The position numbers and the translations under genes are program-made. The notes beneath the pieces are model-generated. The model was not told where the DNA came from, made no database searches, and saw only the letters and a program-made list of their open reading frames with translations. Of a stretch of 64,000 bases of DNA, positions 1,817-27,652 are shown piece after piece. Numbering within the stretch: the first letter of the stretch is position 1; every line of letters begins with the position of its first letter. Origin of the DNA: Limnohabitans sp. WS1 (GTDB lineage: Bacteria > Pseudomonadota > Gammaproteobacteria > Burkholderiales > Burkholderiaceae_C); contig NZ_NERU01000001.1 of assembly GCF_003063265.1 (NCBI RefSeq), forward strand, positions 62,001 through 126,000, read 5' to 3'.

Positions 1817-1875
1817 AAAGCGTTCAATTTCAAAAAATCGAAACTCGCTGAATCTGTGGTGTGTTGTTGGGTTGC

Positions 1876-1898
1876 AACGAAAAGACCTTTTCTTCGTT
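1876..1898 (+). other. Stem-loop in porin leader
   Basis: Imperfect palindrome AACGAAAAG-ACC-TTTTCTTCGTT lying 136 bp before the porin start codon. It could fold in a long 5' leader. Porin mRNAs often carry regulatory leaders, but no promoter was fixed, so transcription of this stem is an inference. The rest of the 1684-2033 gap shows no open reading frame of interest. Confidence 0.3.
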
Positions 1899-2033
1899 AA
1901 TTTTCTTGGAGAAGCGAGAAGGCTCTGGTGCAATAGATGCAACCTTCCAGATATGGAGGTTGGCTCAGGGTCTCAACAGGTGATGGACACCTTTCTGATT
2001 CGGGGCCCTTGTTTAACCTTGGAGAAACTTGCA

Positions 2034-3050
2034 ATGAAAAAATCTCTGATTGCTCTGGCTGTTTTGACAGCTTCTGGCATTTCTTTCGCTCAATCTTCCG
2101 TGACTTTGTTCGGCGTGGTTGACCTTGGCTACACACAGTCCAAAACTGGTGCTGCAAAGACATCTTCCATGACCGATTCCGGTCAGGCATCTAGCCGCAT
2201 CGGCTTCCGCGGTGTTGAAGACTTGGGCGGTGGCTTGAAGGCTTCTTTCTGGCTCGAAGCTGGTACCAACCCTGACAACGGAACTGGCGACGCTACCAAC
2301 AACAACAACCAGTCTGCTTCAGCTGTCACTGCTCCGCGTGCTGGCACACAAGGTCTGACATTCAACCGCCGTTCCACCGTGAGCCTGGAAGGCTCTTTCG
2401 GTGAAGTGCGTTTGGGCCGTGATTACACGCCTCAGTTCTGGAACCATACATTCTTTGATCCGTTTGGCACAAACGGTTCAGGCTCCAACGTTACTGGCGC
2501 CGCCTACGGTGATGCCCGTAACTTTACTGGCGTGCGTGCTTCCAACAGCGTTGGTTATTTGTCGCCTAAGTTCAGTGGCTTGCAAGTTCAACTTCAAACT
2601 TACATGGGTGAAGTTGCGTCACCTGCCGCCAAAGCTGGCAACGGTACTGCTCTCCGCGTGACTTACGATGCAGGTCCTTTGAGCTTGGCCGTTGCTGATA
2701 GTAAAACAACGACTGGTGCTGGTACCGATTGGAAAGCCACTAACTTCGCTGCTTCCTACAACTTGGGCGTTGCCAAAGTCATGATGATGTCTTCTACAGA
2801 CAAAATCACTGGTGAAGCTGACATGGAAGGCTACCTCGTTGGCGTGACTGCACCCTTGGGTGCTGGCGTTGTCAAGTTTGCCATGTCGAACATCAAGCAG
2901 GGCACTACTGTCGATTCCGACAAAACAGCCATCGGTTATGTGTACAGCCTGAGCAAGCGTACAGCGCTTTACACAACTTTCGCCACCACCAAGCCTATGA
3001 CTGGTGACAAGACAACAGGTTTCGATCTGGGTGTGACCCACTCTTTCTGA
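2034..3050 (+). CDS. Gram-negative porin (Omp32/Porin_4 type)
   Basis: Predicted 338-aa outer-membrane trimeric beta-barrel porin for small anionic solutes. The start at 2034 (MKKSLIALAVL) is preceded by GGAG at 2021-2024 and gives a classic signal peptide cleaved after SFA-Q. The frame is open further upstream, but that extension would bury the signal peptide. The mature protein begins QSSVTLFGVVDLGY, carries the SSRIGFRGVEDLGGGLKA strand typical of this family, and ends in F (THSF), the C-terminal aromatic needed for BAM-dependent assembly. An intrinsic terminator follows at once. A paralogue lies at 15400-16416. Confidence 0.93.
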   Translation: MKKSLIALAVLTASGISFAQSSVTLFGVVDLGYTQSKTGAAKTSSMTDSGQASSRIGFRGVEDLGGGLKASFWLEAGTNPDNGTGDATNNNNQSASAVTAPRAGTQGLTFNRRSTVSLEGSFGEVRLGRDYTPQFWNHTFFDPFGTNGSGSNVTGAAYGDARNFTGVRASNSVGYLSPKFSGLQVQLQTYMGEVASPAAKAGNGTALRVTYDAGPLSLAVADSKTTTGAGTDWKATNFAASYNLGVAKVMMMSSTDKITGEADMEGYLVGVTAPLGAGVVKFAMSNIKQGTTVDSDKTAIGYVYSLSKRTALYTTFATTKPMTGDKTTGFDLGVTHSF

Positions 3051-3090
3051 TCCCCTGCTGTCGTCAGACAGCTTGAGATTTCGAAGAAAT

Positions 3091-3125
3091 AAAAAACCCA
3101 CCGTGGCAACGCGGTGGGTTTTTTT
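3091..3125 (+). terminator. Rho-independent terminator of porin
   Basis: Stem AACCCACCG...CGGTGGGTT with A-run before and T-run after, 41 bp past the porin stop. The stem is nearly the same as that of the second porin terminator at 15328-15362. Confidence 0.9.
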
Positions 3126-3137
3126 GTTGTACTTGAT

Positions 3138-13625: not shown

Positions 13626-13661
13626 TCAGTCATTCAATGAATTTAATCGGTCAATGACTGA
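13626..13661. promoter_or_regulatory. Candidate HipB operator over hipB start codon
   Basis: Perfect 9-bp inverted repeat TCAGTCATT (13626-13634) and AATGACTGA (13653-13661) separated by 18 bp. The second arm contains the hipB ATG at 13654. A short palindrome, TCATT-C-AATGA, nests at 13630-13640. The position fits autoregulation by a HipB-type repressor and could block both transcription and translation. The E. coli HipB operator has a different sequence, so this is inferred from symmetry and location. Confidence 0.6.
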
Positions 13662-13989
13662 ATTTTTAGACTTTGGATTCTCCACGTCTGAAGAAATCGC
13701 ACTGGTTTTGGCGCAGCGCTTGAAAAGCCTGAGGGTTCAAAAAGATATTCCTCAAGCCGACTTGGCGCAGCGCATGGGCGTGTCTCGCAGCACGCTCAAC
13801 ACGCTCGAAAATACCGGTAAGGGTTCGGTCATCTCCTGGATCAAACTGGTGCAGTGCCTGGGCCAAGAAGGGCAATTGCAGCCGCTTTTCAAACCCGTGA
13901 CGGCTTCCATCGCCGATATGGTGAAACAACAACAACCCACCCGTCGGCGCGTCACCCGAAATCGCACTCGGCCCGTGGTCAAGCGATGA
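13654..13989 (+). CDS. hipB: HipB-like XRE-family antitoxin
   Basis: Predicted 111-aa DNA-binding antitoxin. A Cro/C1-type HTH covers roughly residues 17-70 (LAQRLKSLRVQKDIPQADLAQ, then MGVSRSTLNTLE as the recognition helix). The tail is basic (PTRRRVTRNRTRPVVKR). Its stop overlaps the hipA start by four bases, the usual antitoxin-first order of type II hipBA modules. No good ribosome site precedes the ATG, and the start codon lies in the inverted repeat described at 13626-13661. The antitoxin role is inferred from the pairing with HipA. Confidence 0.85.
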   Translation: MTEFLDFGFSTSEEIALVLAQRLKSLRVQKDIPQADLAQRMGVSRSTLNTLENTGKGSVISWIKLVQCLGQEGQLQPLFKPVTASIADMVKQQQPTRRRVTRNRTRPVVKR

Positions 13990-15215
13990 AAACAGTACAG
14001 GTTCGCTACCAAGGCTGGGGGGAAAATTGGCCACTGGGCACCTTGGCTGACAACGGTCAGCAACTGCTGTTTGAATACTCACCTCAAGCCTTGGCTGAAG
14101 GCGTGTCTTTGTCCCCGCGGCATTTGCCTTTGCAAAAGCAGGCCATGGGTCATTTCCCGTCGCATCAATGGCGCCTTCCAGGATTGTTTGCAGACTCTTT
14201 GCCCGATGGCTGGGGCATGCTGCTCATGGACAGGTTATTTCGAAAGCAAGGTCTTCGGCCAGAACAGTTGTCACCCCTGGACCGATTGAGTTTCATTGGC
14301 CAACGCGGCATGGGTGCGCTCACTTACCAGCCTGATTCACAGGGTGATGTCTTGCAGGGTACGGTGGATCTGGTGGCGCTGGCCCATGAAACGGCTTTGG
14401 TCTTGCAGGGCGCAGACACAGAAACCCTGCAGCGCTTGGCCTTGTTGGGTGGCTCTCCACAGGGTGCCCGGCCCAAAGTGCTCGTGTTCTTCGATCCAGC
14501 GATGGCCCGCATCAGCACAGCACCCATGCCTGCAGGGTCGGGCTGGTTGGTCAAGTTTCAGGCCTTGGGCGAACACAAAGAAGTCTGTGCCATTGAGGCG
14601 TTTTATGCCCAACTGGCCAGAGCTTGTGGTTTGGATATGCCCGAGACACATGTGTTTGATTTGAATGCCAAACAGGCCGCACTGGGCATTGAGCGCTTCG
14701 ATCTGGTGCAAGGCCAGCGTGTGCCGATCCATTCTTTGGCTGCTTTCTTGCACGCCGACTTCAGAATTCCTTATGCGGTGGACTACACGACTTTTTTACG
14801 CGCCACTCGAATGATCACTCGGGATGAACGTGAGGTGCAAAAAGCATTTGAGCGAGCGGTGTTCAATGTGCTTTTTCACAACCGGGATGACCATGCCAAA
14901 AACCTGGCTTACCGCATGGATGCGCAAAGGCACTGGAAGCTTGCCCCGTGCTTTGACCTGACGTACAGCGAAGGCCCCGGCGGTGAGCACCAAATGGACG
15001 TTTGCGGCGAAGGCCTGCACATCACCCGCAGTCATGTGATGAAGTTGGCGCAGCAAGGCGGCATCGACGCAAGGTGGGCAGGGCACAGGCTGGACGCCAT
15101 GCTGGCCGTGACAGATCAATGGGCTTCGCTTGTCGAATCGTTTGATATCCGTCGAGCGACACGCCAGAAAATGCACCATGAAGTGATTTGCCAGCGCGAA
15201 GCCTTGATGCGCTGA
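13986..15215 (+). CDS. hipA: HipA-like Ser/Thr kinase toxin
   Basis: Predicted 409-aa HipA-family protein kinase. In E. coli HipA inactivates glutamyl-tRNA synthetase by phosphorylation and induces persistence; the target here is unknown. Visible parts: a Gly-rich loop GGSPQGARPK at 155-164, probable ATP-binding K190 (WLVKF), the catalytic loop NRDDHAKN at 299-306 with D301, and FDLTYS at 323-328 with D324 as the metal ligand. The length is near the usual 410-440 aa and no key residue is missing, so it looks active. The upstream frame is open but lies inside hipB. The shared terminator with the second porin follows. Confidence 0.88.
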   Translation: MKTVQVRYQGWGENWPLGTLADNGQQLLFEYSPQALAEGVSLSPRHLPLQKQAMGHFPSHQWRLPGLFADSLPDGWGMLLMDRLFRKQGLRPEQLSPLDRLSFIGQRGMGALTYQPDSQGDVLQGTVDLVALAHETALVLQGADTETLQRLALLGGSPQGARPKVLVFFDPAMARISTAPMPAGSGWLVKFQALGEHKEVCAIEAFYAQLARACGLDMPETHVFDLNAKQAALGIERFDLVQGQRVPIHSLAAFLHADFRIPYAVDYTTFLRATRMITRDEREVQKAFERAVFNVLFHNRDDHAKNLAYRMDAQRHWKLAPCFDLTYSEGPGGEHQMDVCGEGLHITRSHVMKLAQQGGIDARWAGHRLDAMLAVTDQWASLVESFDIRRATRQKMHHEVICQREALMR

Positions 15216-15327
15216 GCCAAGTGCATGAAACTCAGAGCACACAGGCCTGAGCTTCTTTCGATCTCTTTGCAAGTATGGGGTCACAACTTCAGAATTTGAT
15301 GGCGTCAGAAAATGTAACGAGGTCAAT

Positions 15328-15362
15328 AAAAAAACCCACCGTGTTGCCACGGTGGGTTTTTT
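15328..15362. terminator. Bidirectional terminator, hipA / porin 2
   Basis: Perfect stem AAAACCCACCGTG-TTGC-CACGGTGGGTTTT with A and T runs on both sides, placed between the convergent hipA and porin genes. The stem resembles the terminator of the first porin (3091-3125). Confidence 0.9.
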
Positions 15363-15399
15363 GACTTCAATCGGTCAACTGGCTTGCGCCAGCGTTCGA

Positions 15400-16416
15400 T
15401 CAGAAGGAGTGCTTGACACCGAAGTCATAGCCAGTGGACTTGGCGTTGGCAGCAGTCACAGAACCGTTCAAAGCGACAGCAGCGCCGCCTTTGTTCTTGA
15501 CCGAAGCGTATGTAGCGTACAAGTCTGTGCGCTTGCTCAGGCTGTAAACATAACCGAGGGCAAACTGGTTGCTCTTGGCGTCGCCCTGTGCTGTGCTGGA
15601 CATGGCCACGCGGACAGTACCAGCACCCACGGGGGCTGTGGCACCAAACAAACCACCTTTGATGTCTTTAGCACCGTCAATTTTGGTTTTATTGGTTTGA
15701 GCAAACAACTTGGCAACGCCCAAGTCATAAGAGCCGCCGATGTTGGAGGTCTTGTTTTTGACGTTCAGACCAGTTTTGGTGCTGGAAGAAGCCAAAGCCA
15801 CGCTCAATGGGCCGTTGTCATAAGACACACGGAAGGCATTGCCGTCGCCAGCCTTGGCAGCGTCTGTCGAAGCGTTTTCGCCCATGTAAGCCTGAGCCCA
15901 GACTTTCACGCCGCTGAACGAAGGCGACAGGTAACCAATGCTGTTGGAAGCACGAACGCCCGTCACACCACCTTTGTTGAAGGCAATGTTGGTGCCCACG
16001 CCGTTGGTGCCAAACGGATCGTAAGCGGTTTCAGTCCAGAACTGGGGCGTGTAGTCACGGCCCAAACGCACTTCACCGAAGTTGCCTTCCACGCTGACGG
16101 TGGAGCGGCGGTTGAAAGTCAGACCTTGGTTGCGTGCGTTGAGCACTGGGTCGGTTGCACCTGCAGCTTGGTTGTTGTTGTTGGTGCCAGCACCAGAGCC
16201 GTCGTCGTTGTTCACGCCAGCTTCGAGCCAGAAGGAAGCCTTCAAGCCACCGCCCAAGTCTTCCACGCCGCGGAAACCGATGCGGCTGCTGTTGTAACCC
16301 GAGTTCTTCAATTGGGTTTTGCTGCTCACAGTGCCAGTGCCTTTGGCATAGGCTGCGTCAACCACGCCGAACAGAGTCACGGAAGATTGTGCGAAAGCGC
16401 CAGTAGCAGCTGCCAA
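15400..16416 (-). CDS. Gram-negative porin, 5' end apparently lost
   Basis: Predicted about 338-aa paralogue of the porin at 2034, with the same QSSVTLFGVVDAAY start of the mature protein, SSRIGFRGVEDLGGG, and a C-terminal Phe (VKHSF). The signal peptide is damaged. Codons for ALATLAAATGAFA align with ALAVLTASGISFA of the paralogue, but the seven preceding codons expected to read MKKSLI(A) are replaced by AT-rich sequence with no ATG back to an in-frame TAG. Only a TTG at 16416 could start translation, and it would leave about nine residues of signal. The join is near 16429, next to a divergent recombinase gene. It may be a pseudogene or need an unrecognised start. Confidence 0.75.
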   Translation of the reverse strand: MAAATGAFAQSSVTLFGVVDAAYAKGTGTVSSKTQLKNSGYNSSRIGFRGVEDLGGGLKASFWLEAGVNNDDGSGAGTNNNNQAAGATDPVLNARNQGLTFNRRSTVSVEGNFGEVRLGRDYTPQFWTETAYDPFGTNGVGTNIAFNKGGVTGVRASNSIGYLSPSFSGVKVWAQAYMGENASTDAAKAGDGNAFRVSYDNGPLSVALASSSTKTGLNVKNKTSNIGGSYDLGVAKLFAQTNKTKIDGAKDIKGGLFGATAPVGAGTVRVAMSSTAQGDAKSNQFALGYVYSLSKRTDLYATYASVKNKGGAAVALNGSVTAANAKSTGYDFGVKHSF

Positions 16417-16462
16417 TGTAGCCAGAGCAGTTAGATTGTTTAATTTATTTGCGAATAAAGAG

Positions 16463-16497
16463 TTAGTTTTGAATTTGTCACTCTATACTTCTCTAGC
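16463..16497 (+). promoter_or_regulatory. Candidate promoter for the recombinase gene
   Basis: The 68-bp segment 16430-16497 is strikingly AT-rich. It contains TATACT at 16484-16489, eight bases before the ATG at 16498, with only a weak upstream match (TTAGTT at 16463). If this is the -10 box, transcription would begin at or next to the start codon and give a leaderless mRNA. No Shine-Dalgarno sequence is visible, which agrees. Confidence 0.35.
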
Positions 16498-17970
16498 ATG
16501 ACCGTTCGGCCTTTACTTGCCTCTTTGTGCGCCAGTCTGGATGACTTTTTGGCCCAGCCCCTGAACACCGTGGCGGTGTCCGGGGCGTCGGCCGTGGCCA
16601 TCCTGGATGCCAACCAGCCGGTGTTTTATGTGGTCAGTCCGGCGTTTTGGCAGCAAATGACCGATTTGGGCCAGGCTGCACCCGCCCAAGGTCTGCGCAA
16701 ACCCGGACAGCCCCGACGCCCGGCACCGGCGGCCAGGTCAGATCCGGGATTTGACGCGCACGACGAGGACCTGGATGAAGACTTGGGCGATGAAGAAGAT
16801 GGCGACGAAGGCGGCTCGGGCCATGGTGGTGACGAACCCCGACCTGCAGGGCATGCCCGGCAGGGCGCGGCCACACCAGCAAGCAAATCGCGAAAAGCCG
16901 GGTACGGGTCTGGCGATGTGGCGGGCTCGGTGCTGACCCAAGGGGCCATGCGTTTCAACCGTTTTGACGCTTTGGCCGACCAGCTGATGGACCTGGAAAA
17001 CCAGCGCGTCAAGCGCGGTGAGCTGAGCGCCGCCTCGGTGGGAATTTTGAAAAACCGGCTCGACGCGCATGTGTTGCCGTATTTCAAATACATCCCGCCC
17101 TCTCAGGTCACGCCCATGATGATGGACGCCTTTGTGCAGCGCTTGACCGACAGCCACCTGAGCTCGACCACGGTATCGCAATACCTGGTGGTGGTGCGCA
17201 AACTGCTCAAGCTGGCGATTCGCCATGGGTTTTTGCGCGAGATCCCCGAGCTGCCCTCTATTAAGGTGGCCAACCGGCCCCGCTCGATGCTGAGCCTGCG
17301 CGAATACGCCGCGGTGGTGCGCACGGCCCACCGTTTGTCCAGAAAAGGCGACAAGGCCCCCGAGGTCAAGGCGTCCACCGGCTACCGCGAACGCTTTTGG
17401 GTGCAGCCGCGCCACCTGACTTTGCCCCCAGACATGGCCTGGGCCATCCGCTTCATGGTCAACAGCTTTGTGCGCCCCGGCGACTTGCGCCAACTCAAGC
17501 ACAAGCATGTGCAGGTGGTGCGGGGCACAAGTGTGTATTTGCGCATGACCTTGCCCCAAACCAAAAAGCACGATGCCCCCATGGTGACCTTGCGCCCGGC
17601 GGTGCAGGTCTACGAGTCGGCTTTGGCCCAGGCGCGTTTGGACGGCTTTGGCCAACCCGACGACTACGTGTTTTTGCCCGCAGAAAACGACCGCAATTAC
17701 GCATTGGCGGTGCTGGGCTTTTGGTTCAAGTGGGTGATGCGCGAGGCGGGTGTGCCCTCGGAAGACGTGATGGGCCGCCTGCGCACGCTGTACTGTTTGC
17801 GCCACACGTCCATCATGTTCAGGCTGCTGTATGGGCAAGGCATTGACATGCTGACCTTGGCCCGCAATGCCCGTACCTCGGTGCAAATGATCGAGCGCTT
17901 TTACGCCTCGGCGCTCGATGGCGAGATGAACGTGGCCATGCTGCAAAGCCGGCGCACGTCCAAGTCTTGA
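16498..17970 (+). CDS. Tyrosine recombinase/integrase with Phd/YefM-like N-terminal domain
   Basis: Predicted 490-aa protein. Residues about 15-58 (AVSGASAVAILDANQPVFY and a following SPAFWQQM) resemble the core of Phd/YefM/StbD antitoxins (PVAVLNxNxPAFYxVP...). An acidic linker at about 82-114 follows, then a helical core-binding region (about 150-255) and a tyrosine-recombinase catalytic region. The catalytic Arg residues R326 (VRPGDL) and R435 (CLRHTS) and Tyr Y469 (ERFYAS) are present. The position of the box II His holds Y432 and that of the second His/Trp holds N457. Such changes occur in diverged recombinases, so activity is uncertain. It stands alone beside a porin missing its 5' end; no att site was recognised. 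Confidence 0.75.
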   Translation: MTVRPLLASLCASLDDFLAQPLNTVAVSGASAVAILDANQPVFYVVSPAFWQQMTDLGQAAPAQGLRKPGQPRRPAPAARSDPGFDAHDEDLDEDLGDEEDGDEGGSGHGGDEPRPAGHARQGAATPASKSRKAGYGSGDVAGSVLTQGAMRFNRFDALADQLMDLENQRVKRGELSAASVGILKNRLDAHVLPYFKYIPPSQVTPMMMDAFVQRLTDSHLSSTTVSQYLVVVRKLLKLAIRHGFLREIPELPSIKVANRPRSMLSLREYAAVVRTAHRLSRKGDKAPEVKASTGYRERFWVQPRHLTLPPDMAWAIRFMVNSFVRPGDLRQLKHKHVQVVRGTSVYLRMTLPQTKKHDAPMVTLRPAVQVYESALAQARLDGFGQPDDYVFLPAENDRNYALAVLGFWFKWVMREAGVPSEDVMGRLRTLYCLRHTSIMFRLLYGQGIDMLTLARNARTSVQMIERFYASALDGEMNVAMLQSRRTSKS

Positions 17971-18006
17971 ATGGCCTGCTGCTCAGGCCCGCGCCCTCGG
18001 TTCGGG

Positions 18007-19008
18007 TCAGCCGGGTTTGATCTGACCCTTGATGACCACATCTTTCCAGCGGGCCTGTTCTTTGGCGATGAAGGCAGCATATTCGCTGGACGGGCCGCCT
18101 CCGGGGATGGCGCTTTCGGCGGCGTATTTGGCCATCACTTCGGGTGATTTCATGACCTTGGCGCATTCTTGCTGGAGTTTCAGCAAGATTTCCGGTGGGG
18201 TGCCCGCCCGCGCCGTGATGCCGTACCACTGCACAGTCTCAAAATCTTTGAGCCCGCTCTCGGCCACGGTGGGCACGTCGGGCAACACCGGGATGCGTTC
18301 GGTCGTGCCCGTGGCCAGGCAGCGCAAAGCGCCGCTCTTGATGTGGGGCAGCAGGGCCGGGGTGCCGGCCGAGAACAGCTGAATGCGGCCAGCGAGCACA
18401 TCATTCAGGGCCGGACCCGTGCCTCGGTAAGGGATGTGGGTGATGAACATGCCCGTGGCCAGCTTGAGGGCTTCCATGGCCAAGTGGCCTGCGCTGGCGT
18501 TGCCGGCCGAGGCGTAGTTGAGTTGGCCGGGACGGGCCTTGACGTAAGCAATCAGCGATTTGAGGTCGGTCACGGGCACGTCTTTGTGCACCACAAACAA
18601 ACTGGGCACGCGCGACAACAGGGTCACGGGCACAAAGTCTTTGTTCACGTCGTAGCCGCTGTCGGGGTAGATCAGGGGGTTGACCGCCATCAGGCCGATG
18701 TGGCTCATGACGATGGTGTAGCCGTCGGCTGGGGTGCGCATCATCTCTTGCATGGCGGGCACGCCGCCGCCGCCGCCTTTGTTGTCGATGATGAAGGACA
18801 CGCCCATTTGTTTGGTCAATTCGGCCGCGATGGTGCGGGCCACGATGCTGGAGGTGCCGCCCGGTGCAAAGGGCACGATCCAGCGGATGGGTTTGTTGGG
18901 CCAAGCCGATTGGGCGTGGCCGCTGATGCCGGTGGCGGCCAAACCGGCTGCACCCATCCATTTGAGGTAGTCGCGGCGGGGCAGTGTGGGGTTGTTCTGT
19001 TCGTTCAT
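18007..19008 (-). CDS. Bug/TctC-family receptor linked to TctA
   Basis: Predicted 333-aa periplasmic binding protein with a twin-arginine-like leader (PRRDYLKWMGAAGLAATG). The Bug motifs are IRWIVPFAPGGTSSIVAR and FIIDNKGGGGGVPAMQE. The start at 19008 is preceded by AGGGAG; an earlier Met at 19032 lies upstream of that ribosome site. It is on the same strand as tctA, 77 bp after its stop, so it may be co-transcribed and could supply ligand to TctAB, especially if tctC is broken. This partnership is inferred from position. Confidence 0.88.
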   Translation of the reverse strand: MNEQNNPTLPRRDYLKWMGAAGLAATGISGHAQSAWPNKPIRWIVPFAPGGTSSIVARTIAAELTKQMGVSFIIDNKGGGGGVPAMQEMMRTPADGYTIVMSHIGLMAVNPLIYPDSGYDVNKDFVPVTLLSRVPSLFVVHKDVPVTDLKSLIAYVKARPGQLNYASAGNASAGHLAMEALKLATGMFITHIPYRGTGPALNDVLAGRIQLFSAGTPALLPHIKSGALRCLATGTTERIPVLPDVPTVAESGLKDFETVQWYGITARAGTPPEILLKLQQECAKVMKSPEVMAKYAAESAIPGGGPSSEYAAFIAKEQARWKDVVIKGQIKPG

Positions 19009-19085
19009 GTCATTTGTCTCCCTAAAAATCATGGGTGCTGCATCACACCAAAAAGGTGCTGTGTTTCAAAGAGGGAAACCACGCA

Positions 19086-20582
19086 TCAAGACGTGGCTGG
19101 GCGGCGAAACTGTCGCCAAAGTGTCGGGGCCACCAACAACAAAGCCGCCACCAGCATCAAGCCGCCCGACAAAGGCCGCGTGAAGAAGGTGGACCAGTCG
19201 CCTTGGCTGATGGTGAGCGCCTGGCGCATGGATTGTTCGCCCAGGGGGGCCAAAATCAAGCCCACGATCAGCGGTGCGGCCGGAAAGTCAAAGCGCCGCA
19301 TGATGTAGCCCAGCAAGCCAAACACAAACAGCAAGCCCACGTTGAACACCGAGTTGCCTGCGCCGTACACGCCCGCAGTCGAGATGACGATGATGCCCGC
19401 ATACAGCCAAGGCGGTGGGATTTTGAGCAGCTTGACCCACAGGCTGACCAGCGGCAAGTTGAGCACCAGCAAGATCACATTGCCGATGTAGAGGCTGGCG
19501 ATCAGCGTCCACACCAGGCTGCCTTGTTGGCTGAAGAGTTGCGGACCGGTCTGGATGCCGTAGCCCTCAAAGGCCGACAGCATGATGGCGGCGGTGGCCG
19601 AGGTGGGAATGCCCAGGGTGAGCAGCGGCATCAACACCCCCGCAGCGGCAGCGTTGTTGGCCGCTTCAGGCCCGGCCACACCTTCGATGGCGCCGTGGCC
19701 AAATTCTTCGGGGTGCTTGGAGAGTTTTTTCTCGGTGTAGTACGACAGCAGCGTGGGCAGTTCGGCCCCGCCAGCGGGCATGGCGCCGATGGGAAAGCCA
19801 AAGAAAGCGCCACGGAACCAGGCTTTCCACGAACGCGCCCAGTCTTGTTTGCTCATCCACAGGCTGCCCGAGAGTTTCATGACTTCGCCGCCTTTGGACT
19901 CGCGCCCTTGCCAAGCCAGGTACAGCGCCTCGCCCACGGCAAACAGGCCCACTGCGGCCACGGTCACCTCGATGCCGTCGAGCAATTCGGGGCGGCCAAA
20001 GGTGAAGCGGGGCTGGCCGGTTTGCAGGTCCACACCCACCATGCCCAAGAGCAAACCCAGGCCGAGTGCCACCAGGCCGCGCAGCATGGAGTTGCCCAGC
20101 ACGGCCGACACGGCCACCACCGACAAGACCATGAGGCTGAAGTATTCGGCCGGGCCAAAAGCCAGAGCCGCTTCGACCACCCAAGGGGCCACAAAAGTCA
20201 GGGCCAGCGTGCCAATGGTGCCGGCCACAAAGCTGCCGATGGCTGCGGTAGCCAGCGCTTGGCCCGCACGGCCGCGTCGGGCCATTTTGTTGCCTTCCAG
20301 CGCGGTGACCACTGCCGCTGATTCGCCCGGGGTGTTGAGCAAGATGGAGGTGGTCGACCCCCCATAGGCTGCGCCGTAATAAATGCCTGCGAACATGACG
20401 AACATGCTGGTGGCGGGCACATGGTAGGTCAGGGGCAAAAGCAAGGCGATGGTCAGCGCTGGGCCAATGCCGGGCAGCACGCCGACCAGCGTGCCGACAA
20501 AGCAGCCCACAAAGCCCCACATCAAGGTGGTGGGTTGCAAGGCAATGGCAAAGCCACCCATCAGGGCGTCAAAAGCTTCCAT
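19086..20582 (-). CDS. tctA: Tripartite tricarboxylate transporter large membrane subunit TctA
   Basis: Predicted 498-aa integral membrane protein with about 11-12 hydrophobic segments, the usual TctA length. Signature regions include [21 protein letters not shown] (about 30-50), [20 protein letters not shown] (about 68-87) and, after the middle, [19 protein letters not shown]. It forms the secondary transporter with TctB and a periplasmic receptor. The start at 20582 lies 54 bp before the four-unit REP array that separates it from tctB, so its expression probably depends on reading through that array or on a promoter inside it. Confidence 0.94.
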
Positions 20583-20635
20583 GGCAAATCCGATCTATAT
20601 ACATTGTGTGTTGAGTGCAGGGCGTTGATGTCCCC

Positions 20636-20983
20636 TGTAGGAGCGGCGCCCTCGCCGCGATGAACCCTCGCAGACCACTGCCCATCGCCCCGAGGGCGGG
20701 GCTCCCACAAGGGGAAGTCCCCTGTAGGAGCGGTGCCCTCGCCGCGATGAACCCTCGCAGACCACTGCCCATCGCCCCGAGGGCGGGGCTCCCACAAGGG
20801 GAAGACCCCTGTAGGATCGGCGCCCTCGCCGCGATGAACCCTCGCAGACCACTGCCCATCGCCCCGAGGGCGGGGCTCCTACAAAGGGAAGACCCCTGTA
20901 GGCGCGGCGCCCTCGCCGCGATGAACCCTCGCAGACCACTGCCCATCGCCCCGAGGGCGGGGCTCCTACAAAGGGAAGTCCCC
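20636..20983. repeat. Tandem REP array, four 87-bp units, within the tct operon
   Basis: TGTAGG starts recur at 20636, 20723, 20810 and 20897, and a truncated fifth TGT at 20984, giving an exact 87-bp period. Each unit has the stem GCGGCG-CCCT-CGCCGC and, opposed, GCCCCG-AGGG-CGGGGC, joined by CCTCGCAGACCACTGCCC. It fills the 420-bp gap between tctB and tctA, two genes that normally abut. The hairpins may set differential expression of tctCB against tctA. Confidence 0.88.
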
Positions 20984-21002
20984 TGTCGTGCGGAACGCTC
21001 TC

Positions 21003-21467
21003 TCAAATCAACCAAGGCAGAGCAGGTCCCAAACCAACACCCAACAGCTGCGCAAACACAAACCAGAAAGTGCTGGCAATGGCGGCGCAGATCAGGGCCG
21101 ATTTGAGGCCCAAAGGCGCATCAAACGAGCGGGCCACGCCCATGCCGCACAGCGTGCCGGGAATGACAAAGCCCAAGGGAATGACCAGCACGATGAAGGC
21201 CACACCACCGCCCAGCAAACTGAGCACGCGGGTGTTGGCACCAGGCAGGGCCGATTGGTCCGGCGCTTGGCTTTCGTCGGTTTGGCGGCCGCGCCAGGCG
21301 CTCACGCCGTACAACACGGCAAAAACACTCAGCGCCGCCACGATCACGCCGGGTGCCAGCACAGGCCCCACGGTCATCTGCATCATGGATTCAGGAATGA
21401 CCGTGACCTGCCAAGCAGCCACTCCGCACAGGGCGATCAGCAAAAGGGCCACGCGAAAAGGCGTCAT
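21003..21467 (-). CDS. tctB: Tripartite tricarboxylate transporter small membrane subunit TctB
   Basis: Predicted 154-aa membrane protein with four hydrophobic segments (about 5-22, 33-57, 83-105 and 122-148), typical of TctB. It partners TctA in proton/sodium-coupled carboxylate uptake. Its ATG overlaps the TGA that ends the second reading frame of tctC (ATGA), which is the canonical tctCB junction and supports the tctC frameshift call. The next gene, tctA, is separated by the REP array at 20636-20983. Confidence 0.88.
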   Translation of the reverse strand: MTPFRVALLLIALCGVAAWQVTVIPESMMQMTVGPVLAPGVIVAALSVFAVLYGVSAWRGRQTDESQAPDQSALPGANTRVLSLLGGGVAFIVLVIPLGFVIPGTLCGMGVARSFDAPLGLKSALICAAIASTFWFVFAQLLGVGLGPALPWLI

Positions 21468-25883: not shown

Positions 25884-25954
25884 CGGGTGTTTCCTATCAA
25901 GTCGGCAGCTTGGTGTGTGAAGTTACAGGCAGTAGCTTGGTTTTGAGGTGCAGG

Positions 25955-26180
25955 TGTGCGGGGCTATCGCGGCGGGGGCGCCGCTCCTACAGGGGGGCAA
26001 GTGCGCGTTTGTAGGAGCCCCGCCCTCGGGGCGATGGTTGGTGGTGTGCGGGGCTATCGCGGCGAGGGCGCCGCGCCTGCAGGGGGGCAAGTGCGCGTTT
26101 GTAGGAGCCCCGCCCTCGGGGCGATGGTTGGTGGTGTGTGGGGCTATCGCGGCGGGGGCGCCGCGCCTGCAGGGGGGGCG
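25955..26180. repeat. Tandem REP array, 90-bp period
   Basis: GGGCTATCGC recurs at 25961, 26051 and 26141, an exact 90-bp period. Units alternate GCGGCG-(A/G)GGG-CGCCGC and GCCCCG-CCCT-CGGGGC, with a spacer GGGGGGCAAGTGCGCGTTTG seen only here. It lies between the zwf stop and the hexR start. Nothing else was seen in 25884-26188. Confidence 0.85.
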
Positions 26181-26188
26181 TGCGGGCA

Positions 26189-27652
26189 TCAGATTTCTTC
26201 AGACCAGCAATGGCCGTCACGGGCGATCATGGCGCTCGATGCACTGGGGCCCCAGGTGCCTGCGGCGTAAGGGCGTGGGCCGGTGGTGTCGTCTTGCCAG
26301 TGCTGCAGGATCGGTTCGACCCAGCGCCAGGCTTCTTCTTGTTCGTCGCTGCGCACAAACAGGTTCAGGCGGCCATCGAGCACATCGAGCAGCAGGCGTT
26401 CGTAGGCGCCCACGCGCTGGTTGCCAAAGCGTTTGTCAAAGTCCAGGTCCAGGTGCACCGGGCTCAGGGTGGCACCGCCGCTGCCTTGGCCGCGTTTGCT
26501 TTGGCCTTGGGCAAACAGGTGCAGCTCCAGCCCGTCTTTGGGTTGCAGGTGGATGACGAGTTTATTGACCTGGCCCACCGGGCTTTTGAAAATTTCGTGG
26601 GGCGTGGGGCGGAAGTTGATTTCGATGTGCGCCTCGCGAGCGGCCATGCGTTTGCCGGTGCGGATGTAAAACGGCACGCCCGCCCAGCGCCAGTTGGCGA
26701 TTTCGGTGCGCAGGGCCACAAAGGTTTCGGTGCTGCTTTGCGGGTTGACGCCTGTTTCGTCGCGGTAGCCCGGCACAGACTGTCCGAACACGTTGCCCGC
26801 GCTGTATTGGCCGCGGATGACGTGTTGGCTCAGCGTCTCGGGCGTCCAGCGTTTCAGGGCCCGCAGCACCTTGAGTTTTTCGTCGCGAATCGCGTCGGCG
26901 TGTGCGTTGATGGGCGGCTCCATGGCGATGGCACACAGCAGTTGCAGGGCGTGGTTTTGCACCATGTCGCGCAGCGCACCCGTGGTCTCATAAAAGCCGC
27001 CGCGCTTTTCCACACCCAGCTCCTCGGCCATGGTGATCTGGATGTTGGCGATGTGCTCGCGCCGCCACAGGGGTTCAAACAGGGCGTTGCCAAAGCGCAT
27101 GGCAAACAGGTTTTGCACCGCCGGCTTGCCCAGGTAGTGGTCAATCCGGAAAATTTGCTGTTCTTTGAACACCTTTCCCACCGCGGTGTTGATGCTGCGG
27201 TTGGAGGCGAGGTCATGGCCCAGGGGCTTTTCCAGCACGATGCGGGTCTTGGGGGTGTTCAGCCCGTGGGCGGCGAGTTGTTCGCACACGGTGGTGAACA
27301 AGCTGGGGGCGGTGGACAGGTACATCACCACGTTGTCGGTCTCGCGCTCGGCCAGGCGGGCCGACAGGGCGGCGTAGGCCTCGGCTTGCGACAAGTCCAT
27401 GCGCACGTAGCACAGCAGGGCGGCAAAGCGGGCGAACTCTTCGGGTTTGGGGCGCTTGTCGCCTTCGACTTGTTCAAAGCGCGACTGGATTTGCTGGCGG
27501 TATTGCTCGTCCGTCAGGTCGTCGCGGCCCACGCCGATGATGCGGCCGCCTTCGGGTAAGGTGTCGTGTCGGAAAGCCTGAAACAGGGCGGGCATGAGTT
27601 TGCGCCAAACCAGATCGCCCGTGCCACCGAAAAAAACCAGATCAAAAGCCAT
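26189..27652 (-). CDS. zwf: Glucose-6-phosphate 1-dehydrogenase
   Basis: Predicted 487-aa cytoplasmic enzyme oxidising glucose 6-phosphate with NADP to 6-phosphogluconolactone, the entry to the pentose phosphate and Entner-Doudoroff routes. The Rossmann motif FFGGTGDLVWRKLMPALF is at 8-25. The active-site segment RIDHYLGKPAVQN lies near 175 with its catalytic Lys and His. Length matches the family. It diverges from tal across a 196-bp region with an inverted repeat that may be an operator. Confidence 0.95.
   Translation of the reverse strand: MAFDLVFFGGTGDLVWRKLMPALFQAFRHDTLPEGGRIIGVGRDDLTDEQYRQQIQSRFEQVEGDKRPKPEEFARFAALLCYVRMDLSQAEAYAALSARLAERETDNVVMYLSTAPSLFTTVCEQLAAHGLNTPKTRIVLEKPLGHDLASNRSINTAVGKVFKEQQIFRIDHYLGKPAVQNLFAMRFGNALFEPLWRREHIANIQITMAEELGVEKRGGFYETTGALRDMVQNHALQLLCAIAMEPPINAHADAIRDEKLKVLRALKRWTPETLSQHVIRGQYSAGNVFGQSVPGYRDETGVNPQSSTETFVALRTEIANWRWAGVPFYIRTGKRMAAREAHIEINFRPTPHEIFKSPVGQVNKLVIHLQPKDGLELHLFAQGQSKRGQGSGGATLSPVHLDLDFDKRFGNQRVGAYERLLLDVLDGRLNLFVRSDEQEEAWRWVEPILQHWQDDTTGPRPYAAGTWGPSASSAMIARDGHCWSEEI

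Follow-up and report, generated by a model that had tools for sequence, protein, structure and literature searches.

A candidate porin switch in Limnohabitans, with a tyrosine recombinase carrying a Phd/YefM-like N-terminus beside a startless porin

Comparison of the window (the whole 64,000-nucleotide stretch of Limnohabitans sp. WS1 DNA that was analysed) with related genomes makes it likely, with considerable confidence, that the tyrosine recombinase encoded beside a startless porin, here called INT, is dedicated to a porin switch, in which it would invert the segment between two sites, E and S, and put a silent porin body behind a single start codon (Table 1). INT would recognise S, in the signal-peptide codons of the startless porin, and E, at the equivalent codons of the porin with a start, and would exchange strands within the 7-bp spacer TGCTCTG common to both, as a conservative inversion. 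Given the inverted sites, the intervening DNA would turn round, moving porin bodies A and B into each other's place behind the single leader (promoter, start codon and first codons), such that one porin would be made and the other stored intact. From sequence comparison we infer that INT catalyses the inversion, that the E leader carries the putative promoter, and that switching takes place within a single strain, where it may help cells to evade phages that use the porin as receptor or to alter permeability; porins form channels in the outer membrane and often act as phage receptors. The first-pass annotation had proposed a dedicated inversion recombinase at the porin 5' end, and comparison (the spacer repeat, the inverted partner site, the matching spacers and the inverted relatives) leaves that proposal largely right and refines it, the inversion partner of S being a second porin at 2034, 14.4 kb away.

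Table 1. Coordinates of the features discussed, as positions in the window
Feature	Position	Strand	Remarks
Expression site E	2019..2060	+	ribosome-binding region, ATG (2034) and first signal-peptide codons; spacer TGCTCTG at 2051-2057
Porin A, with start codon	2034..3050	+	PF13609 Porin_4 7.9e-57; 61% identical to porin B
Proposed invertible segment	2058..16422	.	14.4 kb between spacers; porin bodies A and B, ABC-transporter genes, HTH-HipA pair
HTH and HipA-like pair	13654..15215	+	inside the segment, adjoining porin B; missing here in many relatives
Silent porin B, divergent from INT	15403..16434	-	Porin_4 1.7e-59; intact frame, no start codon or MKKSLI leader
Silent-side site S, CAATCTAAC-TGCTCTG-GCTACATTG	16414..16438	-	inverted repeat in porin B signal-peptide codons; spacer 16423-16429
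S left flank / INT 5' region	16439..16497	.	putative; perhaps an operator or accessory site bound by the Phd-like domain
INT, tyrosine recombinase	16498..17970	+	490 aa, ATG start; catalytic set R326 K356 Y432 R435 N457 Y469
Phd/YefM/DnaT-type N-terminal domain of INT	16498..16677	+	residues 1-60; profile and fold matches

The two porins and the sites in their signal-peptide codons

When the window genome (G000; 4.6 Mb in 48 contigs) was searched for porin B matches, porin A was the sole other match. Porin A has a ribosome site, an ATG and the leader MKKSLIALA, and is taken as the expressed porin. The frame of porin B, followed upward from the mature N-terminus, runs through ALATLAAATGAFA, NNLT and further residues to a stop, and holds no in-frame ATG, GTG or TTG upstream of the core (codons 28 to 10 before the mature start were counted, the rest read from the sequence). 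Over codons 28 to 10, ATG is missing from 17 of the 18 INT-adjacent Limnohabitans porins, the exception being G024, and ATG, GTG and TTG are all missing from 13 of the 18; L206 has in-frame ATGs farther up, at codons -38 and -61. The corresponding count for class E, an ATG in 32/32, is circular, the class having been defined on its MKK leader, and was not used. Between the silent porins of G000, G044 and G048, dN is 0.034-0.058 and dS 0.26-0.29, a dN/dS of about 0.13-0.20 which indicates that the startless gene is under purifying selection. Porin B as a decayed gene is rejected on this ratio and on the intact frames, a refinement of the earlier description of a porin that had lost its 5' end. 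Only some members of the genus have the HTH-HipA pair at this place beside porin B.

The S arms are 9 bp each, with 7/9 positions complementary in the window and 9/9 in G018, and the spacer lies within the codons for ALA. Within the window the 25-bp site occurs once (0.00 expected by chance), and a repeat search of 15200-19100 alone did not show it. Across 60 genus genomes, TGCTCTGGCTACATTGGC with one mismatch allowed gave 24 matches in 22 genomes, and the reversed-pattern control gave 0; 15 of the matches lie beside INT and 4 in E leaders, 4 more are at further startless porins, and the remaining one, from G004, falls in an unrelated gene's signal peptide. Exactly one E leader occurs in each of 35 of the 60 genomes, with none found at up to 3 mismatches in the other 25; the E site of G035, missed by the E pattern, is present in the fetched sequence. 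Arm complementarity averages 6.8/9 over 17 INT-adjacent S sites vs 1.1/9 over 32 E sites, and the lack of palindromic arms at E is a point against a switch driven by INT. It may be speculated that weak E arms make for unequal binding, perhaps with help from the Phd-like domain acting at the S left flank just 5' of INT, a possible operator or accessory site for it. The silent site of L219 (Limnohabitans sp. T6-20) has one extra G in its core (GCTCTGGGCT), and an exchanged porin would therefore be out of frame there.

Where E and the INT-adjacent S lie on one contig they are inverted in 14/14 Limnohabitans genomes (G000, G011, G017, G018, G025, G030, G033, G035, G037, G044, G048, G049, G054 and G055), an arrangement common to many of the 14 by descent. 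Other startless porins vary in orientation to E: direct for the second one of G037 and for those beside INT2 in G035 and G002, inverted for the second one of G055. The spacers of E and S agree in 19 of the 20 genomes with both visible, pairs with one visible site having been left out beforehand (permutation p 2e-5, or 4/200,000, with kinship ignored), and the sole exception is G037, in which the INT-adjacent spacer differs from that of E. A switch by inversion calls for two inverted sites with an identical crossover region, which is what these two counts describe. Variants are held in common by E and S of one genome, namely CGCTCTG (G049), CGCCCTG (G017) and TGCTTTG (G047, G052), and may trace back to as few as two or three lineages. 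Where no INT orthologue is present, some genomes carry other E spacers, TGCCCTG (G007, G027) and TGCTATG (G028); however, G016, G023, G039 and G053 keep the usual E spacer with no INT orthologue, which speaks against the proposed role of INT.

In 9 species the porin body beside INT shares 28-51% identity with porin B, vs 94-98% for the adjacent TctA where present, the exceptions being G044 (95%) and G048 (91%), and a body can be silent in one species and expressed-type in another (the INT2-adjacent silent porin of G035 vs the E porin of G037, 90%). Both observations would be expected if the locus captured porin cassettes from other cells, with inversion as a side effect. Such capture leaves the startless state, the inverted partner site and the inverted middles of some relatives unexplained, and is regarded as extremely improbable next to inversion by INT between E and S. 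The porin at E (window 1870-3130) is a mosaic among G000, G044, G046 and G048, with leader and terminator nearly constant. Elsewhere in the window, chance open reading frames with repeated peptides at 288-1115, 20569-21106 and 25923-26556 hint at a recurrent GC-rich extragenic repeat between the genes there.

The recombinase, its N-terminal domain and its paralogues

INT matches Phage_int_SAM_5 (2.9e-5) and Phage_integrase (0.0075, the latter under the curated cut-off) in Pfam, and its core-binding domain matches that of lambda Int in structure (Z 13.3, rmsd 1.8, 98 residues); the full-length model is poor (pLDDT 55), catalytic domain included, and the fold comparison is that of the core-binding domain. 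Catalytic set and core-binding domain together mark INT as a tyrosine recombinase, with Tyr432 and Asn457 at the His positions. This agrees with the first-pass annotation, which had read a tyrosine recombinase with the Arg-Arg-Tyr set (R326, R435, Y469, all three present), the box II His as Tyr and the second His as Asn. The six residues listed in Table 1 are identical in 106/106 aligned INT sequences, an alignment in which some genomes are counted twice (as G handle and as named locus), and the replacement of both histidines, invariant throughout, is therefore a family trait and not specific to the window. The INT family may thus be described as tyrosine recombinases with both catalytic histidines replaced, to which the Limnohabitans members add a Phd-like N-terminus.

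That N-terminus had likewise been read as Phd/YefM-like, and profiles confined to residues 1-60 bear the reading out. Pfam gave no Phd domain in full-length INT or in residues 1-151. With residues 1-60 alone, PhdYeFM_antitox (PF02604) matches the window protein at E=0.14 and 19/20 aligned orthologues (best 2e-4), a permissive threshold of 1 being applied to all, while the NCBIfam DnaT profile matches 20/20 (best 8.8e-7) and PDB DnaT 9zbu matches the N-terminal 60 residues at 1.2e-4. Structure prediction, proposed earlier as a check, gave for residues 1-60 (pLDDT 82) the order strand, helix, helix, strand, strand, helix, and the best 36 Foldseek rows are all antitoxins or toxin-antitoxin complexes of the Phd/YefM/RelB kind, none reaching E 0.001; YefM 2a6q (prob 0.99) and Phd (prob 0.96) head them at E 0.08-0.09. 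On this predicted model, residues 1-60 have a Phd/YefM antitoxin fold. The domain is followed by the recombinase, with no toxin-binding tail, and the HipA-like toxin beyond porin B has its own HTH.

Among homologues the fusion was found, by eye, in Limnohabitans INTs and a few others (L229-L232, L234, L272), and is absent from Variovorax-type enzymes and INT2 paralogues, so that of the two features for which a survey had been suggested, neighbouring startless porins extend across genera and the fusion does not reach the Variovorax type. Variovorax-type enzymes without the domain still adjoin startless porins, and the domain, for which the first-pass annotation had suggested a possible self-regulating role, is therefore unnecessary for the association. 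Open frames of 88 aa akin to the INT N-terminus (34-36% identity) occur at G016:C215:2962-3111, G046:C261:1831-1980 and G029:C29:6185-6334, and are perhaps antitoxins or the detached domain.

Recent insertion of INT at the junction is rejected, the locus being conserved across the genus. Units with an INT paralogue (INT2), at L052 (G035:C7:104000-123990), L156 and L165 (G002:C81), are about 7 kb long, tandem in G035, and comprise a startless porin body, a small second tyrosine recombinase (Pfam 4.4e-28 in G002), a DUF6641 protein, sometimes a 520-aa orphan, and INT2. They lie in direct orientation with the expressed-type porin and look like integrative elements landing in porin signal-peptide codons. 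An INT2-like paralogue is also present in the window's own genome (L033, G000:C5:58439-59788), with an open frame, whose TGA is its end, and no porin seen alongside.

The INT2 units of G035 and G002, with their second recombinase, DUF6641 protein and startless porins direct to E, are what would be expected if INT itself belonged, as integrase, to a mobile element that had earlier entered a porin gene, taking or replacing its 3' part and leaving the startless porin as a split remnant. Against this origin, most of the INT-bearing species fetched have INT and porin in one conserved gene setting at the window locus, free of intervening element genes; purifying selection acts on the startless porin; and the orientation of E to the INT-adjacent S is inverted rather than direct in every genome of the pairing count. 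It is accordingly held to be very unlikely there, and a resident switch with INT as its recombinase is the reading preferred below.

Orientation of the segment between species

Each species being represented by one genome, the comparisons that follow are between species. Gene order places the middle segment forward in 24 and inverted in 6 (G008, G014, G024, G028, G047 and G054) of 30 assigned Limnohabitans genomes, so that both orientations, as an inversion switch entails, are seen across these species; G055 (complex, three sites), the outgroups and genomes cut by contig ends were left out of the count. On a 26-genome tree of six concatenated proteins, from which 4 of the 30 genomes with fewer than two genes were left out, orientation changes at least 5 times, and since 680 of 2000 label shuffles gave 5 or fewer changes, orientation is scattered on the tree. 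Between G054 and G018 the flanks are collinear and a 10.26-kb middle is inverted at 89% identity.

Inversion of this kind could also come about by RecA-dependent homologous recombination between the inverted porin paralogues, with INT a bystander, for example the leftover of an integrated element. The window porins share a 29-bp identical run and have similar terminators, the 3' ends of the E and S porins match over about 80-110 bp in G054 and G018, and the comparison of these two genomes would also fit a crossover placed 3' of the signal-peptide codons; moreover, INT is present in 4 of the 6 inverted genomes, with no orthologue seen in G008, an incomplete MAG, or in G028. What weighs against RecA is the sharpness of the boundary at the spacer. 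To its left, sites keep their class: tested E sites average 0.94-0.95 to other E, and tested S sites 0.39-0.61 to other S vs 0.17-0.30 to E (33-nt identity). To its right, sequence interchanges: in inverted G024, the 40 nt past the S spacer equal the E of forward G037 at 40/40, the 29 nt available past the S spacer of G038 match the E of G024 at 28, and the right halves in G011 (both sites) and G055 (E) are closest to, or equally close to, the other class. With the left side unrelated and the right side interchanging, the crossover must therefore fall within a few bases. The agreement of E and S spacers, and the startless porins that adjoin INT across genera, where arms vary by genus and the spacer stays, point the same way, and RecA-dependent inversion is considered unlikely.

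The preferred switch by INT also meets difficulties in the genus. The GCTACATTG half stays at S in inverted G054 and G014 and lies at E in forward G011, and between G054 and G018 the signal-peptide segments are unmoved despite the inverted middle. A pure two-site model coupling orientation to the GCTACATTG half is not supported by these three genomes, and the uncoupling would therefore need further exchanges or a third cassette; the extra startless cassettes of G010, G037 and G055 could be behind it. In addition, G044 and G048, the window's close relatives, have the same orientation and show a mosaic change in the E porin instead, which counts against the switch. A Limnohabitans-type locus also occurs on a contig titled Akkermansia muciniphila MAG (L209), a title that looks mislabelled.

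Relatives beyond Limnohabitans and known systems

A scan of named genomes gave 87 relatives, of which the best 80 were kept; they span Limnohabitans, Variovorax, Ramlibacter, Xenophilus and Pseudacidovorax. Loci of the Variovorax type have INT tail-to-tail with a porin, in which the site reads AGGGCAG(C/T)-TGCTCTG-GCTGCCCT, with new arms and an unchanged spacer; the left arms of Xenophilus and Pseudacidovorax differ from the Variovorax arms too. Among 32 parsed porins of this type (four loci had an unparsable piece), the 15 codons before the core are without ATG in 28 and without ATG, GTG and TTG in 26; L238-L240 have an ATG there with the usual leader missing, and L247 has a full MKKSL leader. 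One forward and one reverse site were found in 17 of 20 Variovorax-type genomes, such a pair with an extra site in 1, a single site in 1 and none in 1, and the pair is inverted in 18/20, with 1667-1784 bp between its members. This compact version places a segment of about 1.7 kb between two porins, which in L250 includes a leader with ATG and genes that we take to be OsmC-like and COQ7. The segment is matched in 33 of the 41 loci examined, 32 in one orientation (L275 irregular) and 1 inverted, and switching there would therefore be rare or one-sided; in the Ramlibacter MAG of L247 the segment is inverted (matched in two pieces) and the MKK leader stands on the INT-proximal porin.

The Variovorax-type segment would work in the same way as that of Salmonella Hin/fljB, in which a promoter-carrying segment is inverted by a serine recombinase with a crossover that is not known to lie in coding signal-peptide codons, whereas INT is a tyrosine recombinase and its crossover would fall within such codons. 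Dichelobacter nodosus Omp1 reportedly offers a Gram-negative case of site-specific inversion of outer-membrane protein genes and is similar in that respect; we know of no tyrosine recombinase of the INT family for it. No earlier description of a porin switch such as that proposed here was recognised among the papers listed from the open-licence literature searched.

By the relevant passages of PMC2268961, tyrosine recombinase inversion in the vsa/HvsR system of Mycoplasma pulmonis sets a promoter, ribosome site and 5' coding part before the silent 3' part of a surface protein, the constant moved part being the first 714 nt and the products lipoproteins of a wall-less bacterium. The present locus resembles it, as far as these passages go, in its tyrosine recombinase, in inversion and in the joining of a 5' end to a silent body, and silent genes without 5' coding end and start are found in both Limnohabitans and the Variovorax type (ATG missing in 17/18 and 28/32, respectively); it differs in that only about eight codons would be moved, in the Gram-negative porin, in the site and in the Phd-like domain on the recombinase. 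For the vpma/Xer1 system of Mycoplasma agalactiae, the same source describes phase-locked mutants and xer1 complementation (PMC2268961), and what it gives of that system includes a neighbouring tyrosine recombinase, one promoter and inversions, as here, but unlike the INT switch its sites lie in the untranslated leader, so that vpma genes keep their start codons. In Burkholderia, a possible phase-variation inversion at other genes is indicated in the part of PMC6307245 that concerns it. By analogy, the porin switch may be a new form of the vsa/HvsR-like principle, the recombinases being likened by arrangement and not by homology.

Should the switch be real, it would help explain why relatives have such divergent porins at this locus, cultures could be used to test whether abundant freshwater bacteria escape phages through their porins, and the startless, "pseudogene-like" porins of Comamonadaceae would gain a meaning. 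A broader reading, quite possible if held tentatively, is that one tyrosine recombinase family of the Comamonadaceae has its exchange point in the signal-peptide codons of a main porin, both for resident switches (the window, Variovorax) and for porin-bringing integrative elements (the INT2 units of Limnohabitans parvus and G002), which together would form an exchangeable porin pool, with arms evolving per lineage, the spacer fixed by its coding role, and porin-binding phages as the probable driving force. At L230, L231 and L232, a leaderless porin, INT and a porin with the MKKSL leader lie within about 5 kb.
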